Shown: positions 29,932 through 39,853 of the stretch, piece by piece
Layout of the letters: each line of letters starts with the position of its first letter
How positions within the stretch are numbered: the first letter of the stretch is position 1
Assembly: GCA_030523555.1 (NCBI GenBank)
Contig: JAUNIH010000001.1
Coordinates: forward strand, 1 to 64,000
From: Erysipelotrichaceae bacterium
GTDB lineage: Bacteria; Bacillota_I; Bacilli_A; Erysipelotrichales; Erysipelotrichaceae
Reading direction: 5' to 3'
DNA length: 64,000 bases
Position numbers and translations under genes: made by a program
Notes under the pieces: generated by a model
Database searches by the model: none
What the model saw: the letters and a program-made list of their open reading frames with translations, nothing else
Told to the model about the DNA's origin: nothing

Positions 29932-29971
29932 AACCTCCTTTATTCCATAATTGAATAGTGGAGGTTTTTTT
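29932..29971 (+). terminator. terminator whose 3' arm carries the recombinase Shine-Dalgarno
   Basis: AACCTCC (29932-29938) pairs with GGAGGTT (29960-29966) and TATTC (29941-29945) pairs with GAATA (29953-29957); seven T follow (29965-29971). The GGAGG in the 3' arm is also the only Shine-Dalgarno for the ATG at 29972, with the T-run as spacer. In the folded state the site is hidden. Confidence 0.8.
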
Positions 29972-30808
29972 ATGCATATCATTATCATTACCCATTGCTC
30001 AATAGATTTATACCGAAAATATCTTTTATCGAAAGAAAAGAGTTTAAATACCATAAATAAATATGTAAAAGATATCATTTATTTTAAAAATTATATTAAT
30101 AATACTTTTATAAACAGAAAACATTTACTGGCATACAAAGAATATTTAAGTAACAGATATCTTCCTTCAACTGTAAACTGTAAGATATCTGCCTTAAACA
30201 GTTATCTACATTTCATGAAAGGGGACAGGCTTAAACTGTCATATATTAAGGTTCAGCATAATTCTTTTATCAGTGAAGACAGATTACTGAATAAAGAAGA
30301 ATACAGAAGACTTCTTATTGCTGCAAAAGAAAGAAACAATATGCGTCTGTACTATCTGATGATGACCATATGTTCTACAGGAATAAGGGTATCCGAATTA
30401 AGATATATAACTAAAGAATCCTTATATGAAGGTAAAGTTCTGATTACTAATAAAGGAAAGTCAAGGACAATACTTATTCCTGATGATTTATGCATAAGAC
30501 TTAAAAAATATGCAGAAAATATATCTGAAGGTCCTATATTCATAACATCTTCAGGAAAACCTTTAAACAGAAGTAATATACACCATGATATGAAGAAACT
30601 GTGCAAAGATGCAAAGGTAGATGAACATAAGGTATTCCCTCATAATCTGAGACATCTTTTTGCCCTAAGCTATTACTCAATAGAAAACAACATTTCTCAT
30701 CTCGCGGATATCCTGGGACATTCTTCTATAGAAACTACAAGAATATACCTGACAACAAGTATTAAAGAACATGAAAATATCCTTTCAAAGATGAAACTGA
30801 TTATATAA
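29972..30808 (+). CDS. tyrosine recombinase (candidate invertase of the adjacent switch)
   Basis: A 278-residue site-specific recombinase of the XerC/XerD/integrase family. Seen: an N-terminal SAM-like core-binding domain (SLNTINKYVKDIIYF near residue 25) and a catalytic domain with all key residues: arginine in STGIRVSELR near 131, lysine in NKGKSR near 158, HNLRH near 219, histidine in LGHSSIETT near 242 and the tyrosine in RIYL directly after. Its stop lies 5 nt before an inverted repeat that bounds the segment 30814-31038. Start: the ATG at 29972 has GGAGG 7 nt upstream; an in-frame TTG at 29951 is unlikely. XerC/D are possible relatives, but size and context favour a dedicated invertase. 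Confidence 0.85.
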   Translation: MHIIIITHCSIDLYRKYLLSKEKSLNTINKYVKDIIYFKNYINNTFINRKHLLAYKEYLSNRYLPSTVNCKISALNSYLHFMKGDRLKLSYIKVQHNSFISEDRLLNKEEYRRLLIAAKERNNMRLYYLMMTICSTGIRVSELRYITKESLYEGKVLITNKGKSRTILIPDDLCIRLKKYAENISEGPIFITSSGKPLNRSNIHHDMKKLCKDAKVDEHKVFPHNLRHLFALSYYSIENNISHLADILGHSSIETTRIYLTTSIKEHENILSKMKLII

Positions 30809-30833
30809 AAAAACACAGAATAGTTATTCTGTG
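30807..30833 (-). terminator. minus-strand terminator formed by the left inverted repeat
   Basis: Read on the minus strand, the palindrome CACAGAATA-N2-TATTCTGTG is followed by seven T (complement of A 30807-30813). It should stop leftward transcription coming from the invertible segment before it enters the recombinase gene antisense. Read on the plus strand no T-run follows. Confidence 0.6.
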
Positions 30834-30836
30834 GTA
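30814..30836 (+). repeat. left inverted repeat (IRL) of the putative switch
   Basis: A 23-nt sequence whose first 20 bases form a near-perfect palindrome (CACAGAATA-GT-TATTCTGTG) followed by GTA. The reverse complement of 31016-31038 matches it at 22 of 23 positions. Inner symmetry of two half-sites around a short centre is what a tyrosine recombinase crossover site looks like. Confidence 0.85.
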
Positions 30837-31015: not shown

Positions 31016-31038
31016 TACTACAGAATAACTATTCTGTG
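31016..31038 (-). repeat. right inverted repeat (IRR) of the putative switch
   Basis: Reverse complement of the left repeat with a single G/A difference at position 20 of 23. On the plus strand the palindrome is followed by GTGAAGAA, with no T-run, so rightward transcripts would pass through it into the XRE gene 28 nt downstream. Confidence 0.85.
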
Positions 31039-31065: not shown

Positions 31066-31305
31066 ATGACACAGTTTGAAAGAAGTATTGCCAGTATTAT
31101 AAGGGCGGAAAGAAAAAATGCCAGTATGACACAAAAAGATTTTGCTTTTAAACTGAATGTTAATTATCTTACCTATCGTGAGTATGAGAGAGGTAATATT
31201 TCGATGCCGTTACGGATTTTCTTCAAAGCCTGTCTGCTTCTTGAACTGGATCCTACCGAAACAGGAAAGAAAGCTTCAGACATTGCAAAAAACAATAATA
31301 TTTAA
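31066..31305 (+). CDS. small XRE-family regulator
   Basis: A 79-residue DNA-binding protein made of a single helix-turn-helix domain: RAERKNASMTQKDFAFKLNV (recognition region, residues 14-33) then YREYERGNISMPLRIFFKAC. No effector domain. ATG at 31066 has AAAGGT 8 nt upstream; an upstream in-frame GTG at 31036 lies inside the right inverted repeat and is unlikely. It is the first gene after the invertible segment and 19 nt before the large surface-protein gene, so it is probably the leading gene of that operon and may regulate it or the recombinase. Confidence 0.8.
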   Translation: MTQFERSIASIIRAERKNASMTQKDFAFKLNVNYLTYREYERGNISMPLRIFFKACLLLELDPTETGKKASDIAKNNNI

Positions 31306-31324: not shown

Positions 31325-34300
31325 ATGAGAAAGGAAACAAAAAGAGTATTACAGATAGTACTTACTCTTTTACTGGTATTTCAGCTGATGCCAGTAAGAT
31401 CCTTAAATGTTTACGCTGATGATACCAGTACAGTAACTGATACGACAGACGTGACAAGTCAGTCAACTGATGGCACTGGCACAAATGACACATCAGATGA
31501 TTCTACAGGTACCGGTGATGGTACAGGTTCAGACAGCACACCGGTTGATTCTATAGTAACTGATAGCGGGAATACGGATACATCATCAGATACTTCTGGA
31601 AGTGATAATGGAACAGGTTCATCAACTAATACAGCAGAAATAACAGGAACTTCAGATACTTCAAATGTTTCTGGTACTGCTTCAGTTAATGGCAATTCAG
31701 ATACTGGAAGTTCCGATATTGTTTCTGCGGATTCAGAACAGGTTACACTGATGTCTGCACCGCTTTTACTTGCGGCCCCTTTTGTTCCTGCAGCAGATAC
31801 AGTTGCCTATACTACTGATGCTCAGGGTATCGTTACTGAATTTACTTCTGTAAAAGACGCTTTTGATTCAATAGGCGCTGATGAAACTGCCACAGTTACG
31901 CTAGCTAAGGATGTTACAACTTCTGAACAGCTTTTTGTTAAAGATGGAAGTATAATTACTTTTGATTTAAAATCTTTTACTTTCTCATCAACATTCTGTA
32001 GTTCAAAAGAAGCGTTTATTAGGGTTACAGATGAATCAACGCTGATTTTGGAAGCTGAACAAAACGGAAGTATAAAAGCAAATAACTCGCAATCAACATC
32101 AGGCACTGCAGTAGCAGTTTATGTTAATAACTCAAGTTTTATTATGAATAGTGGGAATATTTATGCCTATAAGTGGAACGCTATTTGTGCTTCTGGAGAA
32201 AAAGCCAACGTTATCATTAACGACGGTTATGTTCAGTCTACAGGTCAACAGGCAAATATAACTGTAAGCGTAGATTTAAAAGCGCATCTGGAGATGAACG
32301 GCGGAACGATATCTTCGTCCAATAATCAGGGATGTCTTGGAACTTCTCATGAGGGAACTGTTGAAATAAATGGAGGAACGATTACAAATAAAGGAAATAC
32401 TGCAGTCCGCATGGAAGGGGGGACCATTACTTTTAACGATGGTGTAATAAGTCAGACAGGCAAAGGCCATACTGTGCTTATGGCAAAAATTGATGAATAT
32501 GGTTATACAGATGCTGGTCCATCTGACAAGGACGAAATAAATACTTTTATTATGAATGGAGGTACTATAATTTCCGACAATAATCATACACATGCAATAG
32601 TTTGTATTTGTTCTGATCGTGGTTATTTTAAATTTAATGATGGAATCATAAAAGGGAATACCGATATAGATGGGTCCAAGAGAGGAACTCATGTCCAGGT
32701 TGTTGGTGGAATTATGGATATGTATGGTGGAACCATAAGAGATATTGACTGGGGTGGAGTTGTTATTGGCTCTGGTGGAACATTCAATATGTATGATGGT
32801 CTTATTACAGATTGTGACCGTTTAAGTTCATCTAATGGCGGTGGAGGTGTTACAGTTTATGATGCCAAATCAACCGCGAATATCTATGGTGGTACAATTA
32901 CTAACTGCACATCCGGAAGAGGTGGAGGAATATATAATAAAGGCACATTAAATATCTATAATCTGACCTTGACCGATTGCTCAGTACCGGAAAATTACGC
33001 ATCATCCGGCAGCACTAACGGAATATATGGTGGTGCTATCTATAACGTTTCTGGTGCAACCGCCAATATCTATTCCGCATACATCAGTGGCAATACCGCT
33101 AAAAATGGTGGTGCCATCTATAACGAAGGAACAATCAACCTTAAAAACGGTCTTAATTATAATGATGAAAACGGTGATGCATACGGTGAACTCAGAATTG
33201 TCAAAAACAGTGCAAGCGGAGGAACCGGTGGCGGTATCTATAACACCGGTACTGTTACTGTTGAAGACGGTATAGTTCTATGCAACAATACCGGCAAATC
33301 CAACGCCAACGATATCTACAACAAGAATGGTGCCACTCTTAACTTGGGTGAAGTGTGTTCGGATGAATACCTTGATCCTGTTTTCACAGGTCTCTGTAAT
33401 CATCTGATTACTCACTGGCTGACCGATCTTTCAGATGACAGATGGGGCTGCCATAATATTACGGATGTGGTTGATCCGAAAACATATACAGATGAAATGT
33501 ATATTATAGCCGCACACGCAATAAATCTTACTGTTTCTAAAAAATGGGTTGATACACCCGAAAATATGGCTCGTACAGAATCAATCAGCTTTGATTTGAT
33601 GACTAATGGTAACAAGGTTGATTCTTATACATTATCCGAAGAGAACAATTGGTCTACAACAATTAGTGTAAATCCAAGATATATTTATTCTGTTGTTGAA
33701 GCAGATGTAGCAGGATATACTGCTACATACAGTACTGAAACAGATGCTGATGGAAATATTTCTATCCTGATTACAAATACACGTAAAGTAAAGAACTTTG
33801 ATATTGATGTTGATAAGCGTTCTACGAATTTAGATGATGATTTAATTTCAAATGTTACTTTGACTGTACCGGGCGAAGATATTCCTCTTGCGACTGATGT
33901 AGTCTTTGTTTTGGATAAATCTAATAGTACAAACGCAACAATTCAGCAGGGCATACAAAACCTGTTGGACGATTTGACAGATGTTTTAGATAAAACAAAC
34001 GCCAAAATTAATGTAGGCGTTGTCGTATTTACGGGTGAAGCTCATTCGTTCGGATTGTACGATTTAGCTACACAACGTGGAGAAATTGATACTGCAGTTA
34101 AAGCAAAATTCTCACATGGCACAAATATTCATTCCGGTTTGTTAGCCGCACAAAAAATGTTGGCTGAAGATACAGATACACCAGATGGACGTAAGTACAT
34201 GGTTTTGGTTTCTGATGGTATTTCTTACTTATTCAATGAAAACCCAACTTCGGTTGCGATGAATATTCCTGGTGGCGATTCTGGCTGGTACAATCAGGCT

Positions 34301-35635
34301 TGTTATGATTGGGTGGTCAGCTGGGCACTTAAATATGGTACGCCAAGTTATGTTCCAGAAAATTGGGATACATATTTAGCTGGTATTGGTTCAATACTTG
34401 ATAAACAAGGCGATACATATGATTATGTTTGGGAAGTGGATGCACGTCCTGAAGGTACTCCGATGGATGATAGAGATTCAGCTAAGGCTTCATATGCATG
34501 TTCTGCTGATAAAGCTTTATACATGGTAAATGAAACATATAAAGAAATGTCTTCAGTTTATAATTGTTATGCATATAACTTAGGAACTGGTTCAGATTAT
34601 AAGTTTGGCCCATCATTCATGAACTACCTGGCAAACGGTCAGACAGTTACATTTGACGGTATCAAGAATGACATTATCAAAGTTGTAGGTGCCGGATCTT
34701 ATGTAGTAGATTATATCGGTTATGATGATGGATCTAAATATACAGATGGTGATGGAAACGGATATGACTTTGATTTCATTACTGATTCATCAACATTATC
34801 ATTAAAAGTTGGAAATGATGAATATCCAGTAACTTCTGCAAGTGATACAACATACTACTTCGATATTAATCAGGATGGTACAGCTGAATATAAAGTTGAA
34901 TATGTAAAAGGCAATGGTACAACTGAAGAAAGATTTATATGGACATTCAATGTCGATGTAAATATGGATGCACCAGTTTCCTTAACATATCAGGTTAAAT
35001 TAACTAATCCTAGTACTAAATCAGCTCGAATTGTGAGAGACGCGAGTGAATTCACAAATAAAGAGTTTGGTACTTATGATGAAGATGGAAGTAAATTTAA
35101 TGGAGTACAAAATGGTACATTATTATTTACTAACCAAAAGGCTACCTTATATCCTGTACCAACAGTAGATGATGGCAGTTATATTGAACCTATTAATTTC
35201 CCAATGCCAGCTGTATCTTATAAACTCGCTCCATTATATCTGGTCAAAACCCTGTCAAGATATAATGAAACATTAAATGGATCGACATTCGTATTCAGTG
35301 TTTCTGTTACATATAAGGACACTGAATTGTTTAATCAGATTGTAGGTATGACATTTGATTCCAATTCTGCTTCAAAAACCGTCATTATAGCCGATTTACC
35401 TGTAGGTGCTGAAGTAACAGTGACTGAAATGTATTCAGGTTCTACTTATAAACTGACCAGTGAAAATCCTCTTAAGACAACAATAATTAAGGATGATCCT
35501 GCGACAGATGTCGTTGAAGTAGCCAAAGTATCATTTACCAACGACTATGATACAAAACTCATCGGTGGTTCAGGTGCTATCAATGAGCACTGTAAAGACA
35601 CTGTCTCATATGGCTGCGTTGCTGTACAACAATAA
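31325..35635 (+). CDS. large secreted beta-helix / Cna-B / VWA surface protein
   Basis: A 1436-residue exported protein. Seen in order: signal peptide with cleavage after VYA (residue 31); a Ser/Thr/Asp/Gly-rich stretch (33-139); a right-handed beta-helix-type repeat region (about 160-670) with many GGTI, GGAIYN and GGGIYN turns; a Cna-B domain (about 731-822, starting LTVSKKWVD and ending ITNTRK); a von Willebrand A domain (about 855-1050) with MIDAS motif DKSNS near 862 and FTGEAHSFG later; and a C-terminal Cna-B-like domain (about 1301-1432). There is no LPxTG or membrane anchor; it ends shortly after NDYDTKLIGGSG. AAAGGAGA precedes the ATG. Likely an adhesin or fibre component; partners follow in the operon. 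Confidence 0.85.
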   Translation: MRKETKRVLQIVLTLLLVFQLMPVRSLNVYADDTSTVTDTTDVTSQSTDGTGTNDTSDDSTGTGDGTGSDSTPVDSIVTDSGNTDTSSDTSGSDNGTGSSTNTAEITGTSDTSNVSGTASVNGNSDTGSSDIVSADSEQVTLMSAPLLLAAPFVPAADTVAYTTDAQGIVTEFTSVKDAFDSIGADETATVTLAKDVTTSEQLFVKDGSIITFDLKSFTFSSTFCSSKEAFIRVTDESTLILEAEQNGSIKANNSQSTSGTAVAVYVNNSSFIMNSGNIYAYKWNAICASGEKANVIINDGYVQSTGQQANITVSVDLKAHLEMNGGTISSSNNQGCLGTSHEGTVEINGGTITNKGNTAVRMEGGTITFNDGVISQTGKGHTVLMAKIDEYGYTDAGPSDKDEINTFIMNGGTIISDNNHTHAIVCICSDRGYFKFNDGIIKGNTDIDGSKRGTHVQVVGGIMDMYGGTIRDIDWGGVVIGSGGTFNMYDGLITDCDRLSSSNGGGGVTVYDAKSTANIYGGTITNCTSGRGGGIYNKGTLNIYNLTLTDCSVPENYASSGSTNGIYGGAIYNVSGATANIYSAYISGNTAKNGGAIYNEGTINLKNGLNYNDENGDAYGELRIVKNSASGGTGGGIYNTGTVTVEDGIVLCNNTGKSNANDIYNKNGATLNLGEVCSDEYLDPVFTGLCNHLITHWLTDLSDDRWGCHNITDVVDPKTYTDEMYIIAAHAINLTVSKKWVDTPENMARTESISFDLMTNGNKVDSYTLSEENNWSTTISVNPRYIYSVVEADVAGYTATYSTETDADGNISILITNTRKVKNFDIDVDKRSTNLDDDLISNVTLTVPGEDIPLATDVVFVLDKSNSTNATIQQGIQNLLDDLTDVLDKTNAKINVGVVVFTGEAHSFGLYDLATQRGEIDTAVKAKFSHGTNIHSGLLAAQKMLAEDTDTPDGRKYMVLVSDGISYLFNENPTSVAMNIPGGDSGWYNQACYDWVVSWALKYGTPSYVPENWDTYLAGIGSILDKQGDTYDYVWEVDARPEGTPMDDRDSAKASYACSADKALYMVNETYKEMSSVYNCYAYNLGTGSDYKFGPSFMNYLANGQTVTFDGIKNDIIKVVGAGSYVVDYIGYDDGSKYTDGDGNGYDFDFITDSSTLSLKVGNDEYPVTSASDTTYYFDINQDGTAEYKVEYVKGNGTTEERFIWTFNVDVNMDAPVSLTYQVKLTNPSTKSARIVRDASEFTNKEFGTYDEDGSKFNGVQNGTLLFTNQKATLYPVPTVDDGSYIEPINFPMPAVSYKLAPLYLVKTLSRYNETLNGSTFVFSVSVTYKDTELFNQIVGMTFDSNSASKTVIIADLPVGAEVTVTEMYSGSTYKLTSENPLKTTIIKDDPATDVVEVAKVSFTNDYDTKLIGGSGAINEHCKDTVSYGCVAVQQ

Positions 35636-35651: not shown

Positions 35652-36155
35652 ATGATGAAAAATATCAAATTATTATTAGTTTTATCAGCTGTATTATTAA
35701 TCGCTTCTTTCTCGGTTAACAGTACTCTTGCTTACTTCTCCTCTCACAGTGATGCTGAGGGAGGAAAAACTGTAGTATTGTCCCACTCAACAGAGATTGT
35801 TGAAAAAATTGATAATCTCAATAAGTTTATTACTGTAAAAAATACTGGTAAATCTACTATCTTTGTCAGAGTTGCAGTATTCTACAGTACTTCAGAAAAT
35901 GTAACTATTACTTTAGAAGATGGATGGACTGATGGAAAAGATGGCTATTACTACTATGCATATCCGCTTGATCCTGGTCAAACAACTTCGACAGGTATAA
36001 ATGCTGCAGTTTCCTTTAAGGATAAAGACAAGGACCATGATTTCCAGGTTGTAGCCGTATGCGAAAATACGCAATATGTCTACTATGGTGGGAATGAGCC
36101 TGTAAATGCTCCAACCTACAAAGGATGGCATCTGATGGAAAAGGAGGGACAGTAG
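35652..36155 (+). CDS. TasA/camelysin-like exported protein
   Basis: A 167-residue exported protein. Its signal peptide ends STLAYFSS (cleavage after the alanine at 27), the typical sequence cut by SipW-type signal peptidases in TasA, TapA and camelysin. The mature part is a short beta-rich domain (FITVKNTGKSTIFVRVAVFYS near 56) like the TasA fold. A SipW-like peptidase is encoded at 38626. AAAAGGAGAG precedes the ATG. Possible fibre subunit or minor subunit; function inferred from signal peptide and context. Confidence 0.75.
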   Translation: MMKNIKLLLVLSAVLLIASFSVNSTLAYFSSHSDAEGGKTVVLSHSTEIVEKIDNLNKFITVKNTGKSTIFVRVAVFYSTSENVTITLEDGWTDGKDGYYYYAYPLDPGQTTSTGINAAVSFKDKDKDHDFQVVAVCENTQYVYYGGNEPVNAPTYKGWHLMEKEGQ

Positions 36156-36156
36156 T

Positions 36157-36945
36157 ATGTTTAAATCATTAAAATCCAAATTACTGCTTCTTTTGGGTGT
36201 ATGTCTTATTGCTGGAGGCCTGTATCTTCAGGCACCGGTAAACAGAACTGCAGCGGTTCTGCAGTATGTACAGAGCGATGATGAGGCTTATAAGACATAT
36301 ACCGATACCGCTTCTTTAAGAATTGCACTTCTCGAGAATGGCAATATTGTATCTGCCGGTACCATGGAAAGTAACAGGACTTCCACTGATCCTTATGCTG
36401 CTTATGGTGTATCAGGTACTCTTTCATTCAATAAGATGGATAAGCTTGTCATTGGTAAACCATACGCTGAAAATGTTGCGGCTAGAAATATCGGTAACTA
36501 TGCCGAATATGTAAGAGTAATTATCACTAAGAGCTGGACAACAGAAAGTGGCAAGGATACATCTTTAGATCCTGCGCTTATTGAACTTACACTCGATAAA
36601 AAATACTGGGTAATTGATACTGATGAAAATACTTCTGAAAGAACAGTAATGTACTATAAGGAAATTCTTGAAAGTAATAAGCAGACAGAACCATTTATTA
36701 AAGGTATCAGAATCAGTGATGAAATTGTTCCGGTTATTACAGAAAAAGAGACTACCAATGATAATGGTGTAACAGTTGTGACAACTACTTTCTCATATGA
36801 AGGTTATATCTTCAATGTCAAAGCGGAAGTACAGGCTGTACAGACACATAATGCTGCTGATGCGATTACTTCTGTATGGGGTATCACTTCAACCAAATAT
36901 GAAGATCTGACAGGTCTAAATCTGGCAGATGGAGATAACTATTAG
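36157..36945 (+). CDS. TasA-like exported protein, second copy
   Basis: A 262-residue exported protein with an N-terminal hydrophobic segment (LLLLLGVCLIAGGLYLQAP, residues 10-27) and a beta-rich mature part with KPYAENVAARNIGNYAEYVRVIITKSW near 98, similar to the TasA-type NTG/EYVRV strand pattern of the previous gene. No C-terminal anchor. It begins 1 nt after the upstream gene and has AAGGAGGG ahead of it. Likely another fibre or matrix subunit exported through the same pathway; this is inferred. Confidence 0.7.
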   Translation: MFKSLKSKLLLLLGVCLIAGGLYLQAPVNRTAAVLQYVQSDDEAYKTYTDTASLRIALLENGNIVSAGTMESNRTSTDPYAAYGVSGTLSFNKMDKLVIGKPYAENVAARNIGNYAEYVRVIITKSWTTESGKDTSLDPALIELTLDKKYWVIDTDENTSERTVMYYKEILESNKQTEPFIKGIRISDEIVPVITEKETTNDNGVTVVTTTFSYEGYIFNVKAEVQAVQTHNAADAITSVWGITSTKYEDLTGLNLADGDNY

Positions 36946-36957
36946 GAGGGATAGGAA

Positions 36958-37659
36958 ATGAAGAAATTAATATATGTTTAAATAGCTTTAATGTTACTTG
37001 TTCCTGTTAATGTATTTGCCAGCTCAAGTAATGGTACTGAAGGTACTGTTACCTTTACAGGTACAGCACTTGTAGAAGACTATAATACTGCGGGTTATGC
37101 CAGTGAAGTTAATTCTTTACAGCCTGGCGATTCCTTCAGTGTTACGGTAAACAACACCAATAACTATGACGGCAATACTGCGTGGTACTTCTCAAACAGC
37201 GTCTTAAAGACTCTGGAAGAATTGTCTGTCGCAAAGAATGGTGCCTATACCTATACACTTGCCTATAACGGTACAACAATCTATGATTCTTCTACTGTCG
37301 GTGGCGAAACTGTTTCTTCAAGCGGTACAGGTTTATATCAGGCTACTGATGCCCTGGATGAATGGTTCTATATCGATACATTAAAGAAGGGTCAGAGCGG
37401 ACAGATGATTCTGACAGTTAATTTCGATGGTGAAACTCAGGCAAACAACTATATGCTGACAGATGCCGCCTTACAGATGAAATACGCTGTAGGTATTATT
37501 CCTGAAGGCGTAGATACTGTGGAATACTACTACACCAACCAGCGTATTATCTATACAGGTGACAACAAAACAAGAAATATCTATTCCTATGTAGCGATTG
37601 GATGTGGTGCAATCGCCATAGTTCTGGCTTTTGCTGTATCAAAGATGAAAGAGGACTAA
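36958..37659 (+). pseudogene. membrane-anchored surface protein with a stop codon in its signal peptide
   Basis: Reading from the ATG at 36958, which has a strong AGGAGGG, gives MKKLIYV, then TAA at 36979, then IALMLLVPVNVFASSSNG in the same frame, plainly one signal peptide with a nonsense codon. Restart at the ATG at 36991 would lack both a Shine-Dalgarno and the positively charged N-terminus. The rest is intact: a TasA-like beta domain (LQPGDSFSVTVNNTNNY part) and a C-terminal IIYTGD-like motif, membrane segment and short charged tail KMKED, resembling a sorting signal with the LP of LPxTG replaced. A single base change (TTA to TAA) would explain it; a sequencing error or a genuine null allele cannot be told apart here. 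Confidence 0.7.
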
Positions 37660-37663
37660 GATT

Positions 37664-38521
37664 ATGAAGAAAATACTTACTGTTTTAATTACTCTTTTAC
37701 TTCTTAGTGTTTCAATGTTTACAGTATTCGCTGATGGTTATACCTATACACTGACAATTTCCGCAGATGGTCAGGTTGTCTATAAGCTCGATAACCTCAA
37801 ATATGGAAGTGTAGTTTCGCTTCCTCAGGGTTTTGTACAGAATCTTGTTACACCAAGTGATTCAAGATACTATACCAAAGGTGTAAAGAAAGCCGGGTAT
37901 GATAACGCTGAAGCTCAGGCATCATATACTGTTACTGAAGATCTTGACCTTGTAGTATTCTATGGTCTAAAAAGTTCTCAGGTATCATATACTGTAAGAT
38001 TTGTTGATGGAAGCGGAAATCAGCTTCTGGCTGATCAGACTTTCTATGGCAATGTAGGTGAAAAGGCCGTTGCGAGCTATCAGTACATAGACGGGTATGT
38101 ACCTCAGGCATATAATCTGGCTATGACTTTAAAGGATAAGGACAATGTCTTTACGTTTGTGTATTCACCAGATCCTACTGGTACCTACAGACTTATTGAT
38201 CTTGGTACACAGTATATTATCGGACCTACGGTTGTGGTAAACGGTGGAACTACACCTGCTCCTGCAACACCAGCCGATAATACTCCTGCAGATAATACAC
38301 CAGCAGAAACAGTAGTTGACAATACTACTCCACAGACAAATACCCCTGAAGAAATTATCGATATCGATAACAGCACCACGCCAACTGCCAACCCTGGCAA
38401 TTCCATCAGTATTCCATTAATGGTTGGTGGAGCATGTGCAGTAGCCGGCTTGGGAGGTCTTGTCTTCTTCCTTCTTAAGAGAAAGAAAGATGAAGACGAA
38501 GAAGAAACTGCTGAAGAATAA
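37664..38521 (+). CDS. anchored surface protein with MucBP-like domain
   Basis: A 285-residue cell-surface protein. Seen: signal peptide ending VFA-DG near residue 24; a MucBP-like domain (VSYTVRFVDGSGNQLL near 106 to FTFVYSPDP near 165); a Pro/Thr/Ala-rich wall-spanning stretch (about 195-240) built of repeats of the PADNTPAD/PAET kind; and a C-terminal signal of membrane segment (LMVGGACAVAGLGGLVFFLL) plus KRKKDEDEEE. No LPxTG is present; the sequence before the membrane segment is TANPGNSIS, which resembles the NPxTN type recognised by class B sortases, and such a sortase is encoded at 39107. Probable sortase substrate (inference). Confidence 0.75.
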   Translation: MKKILTVLITLLLLSVSMFTVFADGYTYTLTISADGQVVYKLDNLKYGSVVSLPQGFVQNLVTPSDSRYYTKGVKKAGYDNAEAQASYTVTEDLDLVVFYGLKSSQVSYTVRFVDGSGNQLLADQTFYGNVGEKAVASYQYIDGYVPQAYNLAMTLKDKDNVFTFVYSPDPTGTYRLIDLGTQYIIGPTVVVNGGTTPAPATPADNTPADNTPAETVVDNTTPQTNTPEEIIDIDNSTTPTANPGNSISIPLMVGGACAVAGLGGLVFFLLKRKKDEDEEETAEE

Positions 38522-38625: not shown

Positions 38626-39105
38626 ATGAAAAAGAAGAATATATCAGTAATCAGAATAATCGGTATAGTCCTTGTTACAGGGGCTGTTTTGATATCTCTA
38701 ATTACCGGTTTACCTTCTTTAATGGGATATAAGAGTTATGCTGTAACAAGTGGCAGTATGGAACCTGCTATTAATGTAGGGGATGTTATATATGCTAAAA
38801 GTGTTGATCCTGAAGAACTTGTTAAGGGAGATATCATTACCTACTATTCCAATGGCATAACTGTAACTCATCGTATATCAGATATTGATACAGATAACAG
38901 ACAGTTTATAACTAAAGGTGATAATAACGGATTAGAAGATATAATGCCTGTAGATTATGATGAGGTAATAGGGAAGGTAGTTTATTATACAAATACCTTT
39001 GGACCGTTTATCACATTTCTTTCTACTTTTACAGGAAAGATGATTCTCTTTGGAATGCTGCTGGGTGGTTTTATCCTGTGGGAAATAGGGGATCATATCA
39101 GATAG
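38626..39105 (+). CDS. sipW: SipW-type signal peptidase I
   Basis: A 159-residue membrane peptidase of the ER/archaeal type (S26B), with one N-terminal and one C-terminal membrane segment. Seen: the catalytic serine in TSGSMEPAINVGDVI near residue 42 and a histidine in TVTHRISD near 84 in place of the bacterial lysine, then KGDNNGLED near 102. SipW processes TasA-like proteins, matching the STLAYFSS signal peptide at 35652. The ATG has no Shine-Dalgarno (TTATATCAAAAA precedes it), so initiation may be weak or leaderless. It ends 1 nt before the sortase gene. Confidence 0.88.
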   Translation: MKKKNISVIRIIGIVLVTGAVLISLITGLPSLMGYKSYAVTSGSMEPAINVGDVIYAKSVDPEELVKGDIITYYSNGITVTHRISDIDTDNRQFITKGDNNGLEDIMPVDYDEVIGKVVYYTNTFGPFITFLSTFTGKMILFGMLLGGFILWEIGDHIR

Positions 39106-39106
39106 T

Positions 39107-39853
39107 ATGAAAATGTTAAAGAAAATAATATATGTTCTTATAGCTGTTCTTTTAAGTATATCTGTATATGCCTTATACAATCTCTATAAAGATAAAACAC
39201 AGGAAAAAGAAGAGATAAGACAGAATGAAGAATTAAGTAATACTGTGCATGTCTATCATAATAATGAAATAACAGGTGAAATATCTTTACCTGACTTAAA
39301 TAAGCTTAAAGAGATTAATAATGATCTTACAGGATGGTTATATATAGAGAATGCGGGTGTAGATTATCCGGTGATGTATACACCAAATGATGTAGAGAAG
39401 TATCTTCATCTATCTTTTGATGAGTCTTATTCTTTTGGAGGTTTACCATTTATAGGAGAAAACTGTGATGAAGATTCATATGTCTTTATTATCTATGGAC
39501 ATAATATGTTAAATGGAACAATGTTTGGTTCTATAGATCAGTATTCAAATAAATCATTCTATGAAGATAATCAGATTATTGAATATACAACACTTTCTGA
39601 AACAAGAAAATATCAGATAGTCTATGTCTTTAATACAGTAATAGATGAAACTTCACCGATAGCTCCATATTTCATGTTTGTAGGAAATCTTACTGAAGAA
39701 TCATTTGATTATCTTATAGACTTCTGCGATTCAAATAAACTCTATAATACAGGACAGAGTATAGAATACGGTGATCAGGTGATGATGCTGTCAACATGTT
39801 ATACAAATAATGAGTTTGGAAGATTTGTGATTGTAGCTAAAAGAGTATCTTAA
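39107..39853 (+). CDS. class B sortase
   Basis: A 248-residue membrane-anchored transpeptidase. Seen: N-terminal membrane segment (IIYVLIAVLLSISVYALYNLY part), the class B entry INNDLTGWLYIENAGVDYPVM near 67, catalytic histidine in YGHNMLNGTMFG near 131, cysteine in MLSTCYTNN near 229 and arginine in FGRFVIV near 240. Class B enzymes attach proteins to the wall or, in some lineages, build pili. Candidate substrates are the anchored proteins at 36958 and 37664. Whether it uses NPxTN-like or other signals cannot be decided from sequence. Confidence 0.88.
   Translation: MKMLKKIIYVLIAVLLSISVYALYNLYKDKTQEKEEIRQNEELSNTVHVYHNNEITGEISLPDLNKLKEINNDLTGWLYIENAGVDYPVMYTPNDVEKYLHLSFDESYSFGGLPFIGENCDEDSYVFIIYGHNMLNGTMFGSIDQYSNKSFYEDNQIIEYTTLSETRKYQIVYVFNTVIDETSPIAPYFMFVGNLTEESFDYLIDFCDSNKLYNTGQSIEYGDQVMMLSTCYTNNEFGRFVIVAKRVS

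Follow-up and report, generated by a model that had tools for sequence, protein, structure and literature searches.

Does a stop codon within a signal peptide mean that a lineage has lost a surface protein, or that one base of a draft assembly is wrong? Gene D raises this question. It belongs to a cluster of genes for secreted and surface proteins in the window (the whole 64-kb stretch of DNA that we analysed), and its coding sequence is broken by an ochre codon shortly after the start (Table 1).

Table 1. Features of the gene D locus, from the upstream recombinase gene to the sortase gene (window coordinates)
Feature	Position	Strand	Basis and remarks
Tyrosine recombinase	29951..30808	+	XerA/C/D-like matches, all below cut-offs
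Inverted repeat, left arm (putative invertible segment)	30814..30836	+	Repeat search
Inverted repeat, right arm (putative invertible segment)	31016..31038	-	Repeat search
Small helix-turn-helix protein, 79 aa, between repeat and gene A	31066..31305	+	Sequence; weak HTH matches
Gene A, large adhesin with VWA and Cna_B domains	31325..35635	+	Family match
Gene B, small secreted protein	35652..36155	+	Weak BsaA-family (TIGR04090) similarity, below cut-off
Gene C, secreted protein	36157..36945	+	Weak BsaA-family (TIGR04090) similarity, below cut-off
Gene D, Shine-Dalgarno AGGAGG	36944..36949	+	Sequence; 8 nt upstream of ATG 36958; overlaps gene C stop codon
Gene D, codons 1-7 (MKKLIYV)	36958..36978	+	Charged start, then the beginning of the signal-peptide hydrophobic core; aligns with homologues
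Gene D, in-frame ochre stop TAA, codon 8	36979..36981	+	Sequence
Gene D, remainder, frame intact	36982..37659	+	Signal-peptide end, beta-rich domain, TGD motif, C-terminal membrane helix, basic tail
Gene D, ATG, possible restart	36991..36993	+	Sequence; sole nearby in-frame ATG past the stop; no Shine-Dalgarno
Gene E, surface protein	37664..38521	+	Weak MucBP similarity, membrane-anchor tail
SipW-type (archaeal/ER-type) signal peptidase I	38626..39105	+	TIGR02228 above cut-off; NF046067 (SipW) below cut-off
Sortase, class B-like	39107..39853	+	PF04203 above cut-off; TIGR03064 E 1.3e-32, below cut-off

An ochre codon in the signal peptide of gene D

An earlier note on this DNA had described a strong Shine-Dalgarno sequence, an MKKLIYV start, a TAA codon and an intact continuation, and the sequence agrees with that description in all details checked. 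Past the TAA the frame reads IALMLLVPVNVFASSSNG... and stays open up to the TAA at 37657-37659. In alignment A1, what follows the stop lines up with the last part of the signal peptides of the homologues, so that both halves match and the element broken by the stop is indeed a signal peptide. As the note had also proposed, one substitution suffices to explain the stop.

We scanned 1,282,569 bases (the window plus the loci collected, minus three duplicates of the locus itself) for broken starts, defined as a Shine-Dalgarno sequence and a start codon whose frame is closed by a stop after 3-25 codons and then stays open for 100 codons or more past that stop. Fifty places satisfy this basic pattern. 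When an ATG start, at least two K/R in residues 2-5 and the lack of a second ribosome site are added, one of the 50 is left, and it is gene D. The break is more than chance. It also carries a warning for annotation: the list of open reading frames holds gene D only as a 222-residue frame from the ATG at 36991. An automatic start at that codon leaves no usable signal peptide, and the gene D product would therefore be mis-sorted.

Homologues of gene D (E <= 0.001) were found in 22 of the 101 genomes searched and in 12 of the 36 genomes of the genus, the genome studied here being counted in both, and the closest within the genus are about 31-41% identical. When GTDB contigs were scanned with an alignment of five members, 249 related places came up; the best 80 of these were used and are mostly labelled Lachnospiraceae, with Erysipelotrichaceae, Oscillospiraceae and others also represented. 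No relatives were found in the viral contigs searched. In the 24-member alignment A1, which omits three longer homologues (L015, L016 and L028) out of the 26, a signal peptide is followed by a conserved domain and, at the C-terminus, by a membrane helix. The whole genome returned a single match, and the idea that it holds another functional copy of D was therefore rejected.

With the best 80 of the 249 places included, there were 107 homologous loci, and 106 of them were scored (L020 fell below the comparison threshold of the script). The signal peptide contains a stop in 0 of the 106, and the N-terminal signal sequence is kept in every one. In 104, the automatic comparison recognised a ribosome site followed by an N-terminus that is charged and hydrophobic; inspection by hand of the two flagged loci, L048 and L073, found a normal in-frame signal peptide in both, that of L048 lying behind no evident ribosome site. 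Because there are near-duplicates in the set (L003 and L077 are apparently the same gene, and the N-termini are identical between L041 and L043 and between L035 and L038), the 106 loci do not amount to 106 independent events.

The gene D product and its cluster

The product has a Sec signal peptide and a beta-rich domain, followed by a TGD sorting-like motif (37555-37563), a C-terminal membrane helix (about 37570-37653) and a basic tail. Its end reads IIYTGDN..., then the helix, then basic KMKED, which is a sortase-type C-terminal layout. Among 106 D homologues (a set that includes the best 80 of 249), 105 have the membrane segment and 90 have TG[DE] within the last 60 residues, while a classical [LIV]PxTG is found in just 12. 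Against Pfam and NCBIfam, gene D has no match above cut-off, the best being NF053819 (E 0.01). The predicted fold, built from 24 sequences, is of moderate quality (mean pLDDT 72.4, pTM 0.62), and a Foldseek search with the model found nothing convincing in the PDB (TM by query no higher than 0.31; 1 of 947 matches at E <= 0.001); we therefore assign no fold name to D. Since D has neither a curated family above cut-off nor a convincing PDB relative, it is from this layout and from the neighbouring genes that we infer D to be a sortase substrate.

The "surface protein" of the earlier note can be placed more precisely: it is D in a gene cluster, A-B-C-D-E-SipW(-SrtB), that is conserved. Gene C occurs in 20 of 100 relatives, and because D is present in 18 of those 20, D is a regular part of the cluster. 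Two relatives have C but lack D, namely G091 and G032, the latter with C right at the end of its contig; three others (G067, G071 and G084) have D without C. We also compared 108 loci with the genes of the window and counted the 66 that span at least 11 kb (L120 overlaps L077). Gene E is present in 66, C in 65, B in 64, A in 63, SipW in 59 and SrtB in 21; the presence of D in 66 of 66 proves nothing, since the loci were picked by the presence of D. Gene order and strand are mostly unchanged across these loci. Many Lachnospiraceae and Erysipelotrichaceae carry the cluster, as do other gut Bacillota (loci L030-L109), and a limited literature search with few terms returned no published description of its structure or function. 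The conserved cluster is a more lasting by-product of this work than a single null allele.

Elsewhere in the same genome, on contig C61, there is a partial paralogue of gene E (L118:12008-12457) that comprises only residues 142-284, the last half of the protein, and shares 76% DNA identity with gene E over 437 bases. No other genes of the operon were found beside it, and it is probably what is left of a second copy of the operon, or of a copy that has moved.

There are at least two published parallels for a natural disruption in a cluster of this kind. In the srtF pilus cluster of Streptococcus suis, sfp2, which codes for an ancillary pilin, has an ochre stop after codon 49 that is common to other sequenced strains; Sfp2 was undetected by Western blot, and the major subunit still forms pili (PMC2797073). 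Both sfp2 and gene D have a natural early ochre codon in a gene for a surface-appendage subunit, and both clusters contain their own signal peptidase and sortase genes and are otherwise intact. The stops differ in position and spread (after codon 49 in several isolates for sfp2, at codon 8 in one genome for D), the loss of Sfp2 was shown by Western blot whereas D is known here from sequence, and the sortase is of class C in the srtF cluster but class B-like beside D. The likeness is one of lesion and cluster make-up (PMC2797073).

The second parallel is the sipW-bsaABCRSD operon of Clostridium perfringens, which makes the BsaA fibre and in which bsaB and bsaC mutants give fragile pellicles; in strain SM101, insertion sequences lie within the operon (PMC7395162). 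As in the D cluster, a SipW-type peptidase stands beside small secreted proteins with a sortase gene nearby. The matches of genes B and C to the BsaA family (TIGR04090) are weak, at 22.6 and 25.9 bits against a curated cut-off of 60. The C. perfringens operon also has a different gene order and content, with two-component genes, whereas the D cluster has the VWA/Cna_B adhesin, D and E, and the natural disruption is by insertion sequences in SM101 and by a stop here (PMC7395162). The stop in gene D thus joins an already known kind, that of naturally disrupted surface-appendage genes, with sfp2 as a close published parallel. Taken alone, gene D would be one more natural null allele of such a gene.

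A probable null allele, with consensus error and restart as rivals

Gene D has an early in-frame stop in an otherwise open frame, at a place where 0 of the 106 scored homologues are interrupted. We consider it probable that this is a recent nonsense null allele of a sortase-type surface subunit, the base being known from the assembly consensus of one genome. Because the homologues within the genus are so divergent, its recency is judged from the single lesion and not from a rate test. A single recent substitution would have produced the ochre codon within the hydrophobic core of the signal peptide, and ribosomes loading at the Shine-Dalgarno sequence would halt once seven residues had been made. 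The occasional restart at 36991 would yield a product that lacks the charged start and most of the hydrophobic core, and this product should remain inside the cell. With an early halt and a restart product that is not exported, mature D would be missing from the surface, and assembly of the remaining subunits may go ahead in its absence.

The stop may also affect gene E, which starts 4 nt past the gene D stop codon with its own AGAGGA in front. A downstream gene may lose translation by uncoupling when the gene upstream is untranslated, and a long untranslated stretch can lower transcription downstream. Gene E, and perhaps the genes beyond it, may thus receive less translation or transcription (polarity). 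We infer all four elements of this account: a real base, a recent mutation, the absence of the D product and the polar effect. Decay of the operon as a whole was rejected, since its other genes are open and intact.

A null allele and a read error were the two options named in the earlier note, and they were the right pair to weigh. The main rival is a consensus or assembly error, with gene D uninterrupted in the living strain; in our judgement it is unlikely. It fits the uninterrupted state of all 106 scored homologues, the lack of decay elsewhere in gene D and the draft status of the genome (95 contigs). The stop site is, however, not in a long homopolymer, and since gene D was the only broken gene recognised across the 64 kb, there is no evident sign of a high error rate. 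In the window, 57 open frames cover 96.5% of the sequence and no second pair of broken halves was recognised. Such a clean window speaks against a poor consensus; a single wrong base is compatible with it.

If the stop is real, D could still be made in full if the stop were bypassed, and three candidate routes were considered. (i) An alternative genetic code was rejected, because TAA terminates gene D itself and 25 of 37 other genes of the window (those with correctly read ends, one of 38 having been dropped because its end coordinate was off by one base). (ii) An ochre suppressor tRNA is unsupported: none of the 35 tRNA genes found has a stop anticodon, and because the genome is 95.5% complete an unseen suppressor gene could exist. 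(iii) A single -1 or +1 slip was rejected, since from any of the seven codons the shifted frames run for at most 16 codons.

A shortened D might instead be made by termination and restart, with a seven-residue leader followed by initiation at ATG 36991 and a product that is exported or works inside the cell. This ATG lies in the same frame, 9 nt past the stop, and the sequence from it, MLLVPVNVFA, retains a hydrophobic stretch (mean of 2.2 over 9 residues) and a cleavage-like FAS. It is, however, preceded by no ribosome site, its leader has no positive charge at the start and offers only about 10 residues ahead of the cleavage-like site, and restart-type architecture is found in 0 of the 106 scored homologues. 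Initiation at 36991 would be expected to give little protein and no efficient export, and we regard a working restart as very unlikely.

The recombinase and inverted repeats upstream

Between the tyrosine recombinase gene and the operon lie two inverted arms of 23 nt each, 96% complementary and 179 nt apart, whose palindromic core has no further occurrence in the genome even when one mismatch is allowed. Inverted repeats with an adjacent recombinase gene, as in a phase-variable operon, are thus present, and the pair likely belongs to a putative invertible segment that would drive the operon. Promoter-like sites in the upstream region are few and near expectation (6 against 3.2 expected). The earlier suggestion that the operon is "often OFF" draws partial support from the recombinase gene and the unique repeat pair, and relaxed selection on the operon is at most a fair guess. 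Among the papers searched, none links an invertible promoter with Erysipelotrichaceae.

With a putative invertible segment upstream and gene D otherwise intact, the stop might be read as part of a programmed or reversible switch, either as a second OFF layer over promoter inversion or as a site of conditional readthrough. The stop is kept, however, in none of the 106 scored homologues, its site has no repeat tract and no slippery bypass (both shifted frames close), and a suppressor was not found among the 35 tRNA genes. A switch of this kind is extremely improbable.

The probable null allele could also have been favoured, the lineage having dropped one sortase-type subunit so that cells in the ON state of a promoter switch show a D-less structure, as S. 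suis shows pili without Sfp2. We hold this stronger form, with a stop both real and favoured, to be quite doubtful.

The same contig has a second tyrosine recombinase gene about 20 kb further on (L119:11010-11786, minus strand); it is 28% identical to the recombinase beside the operon.
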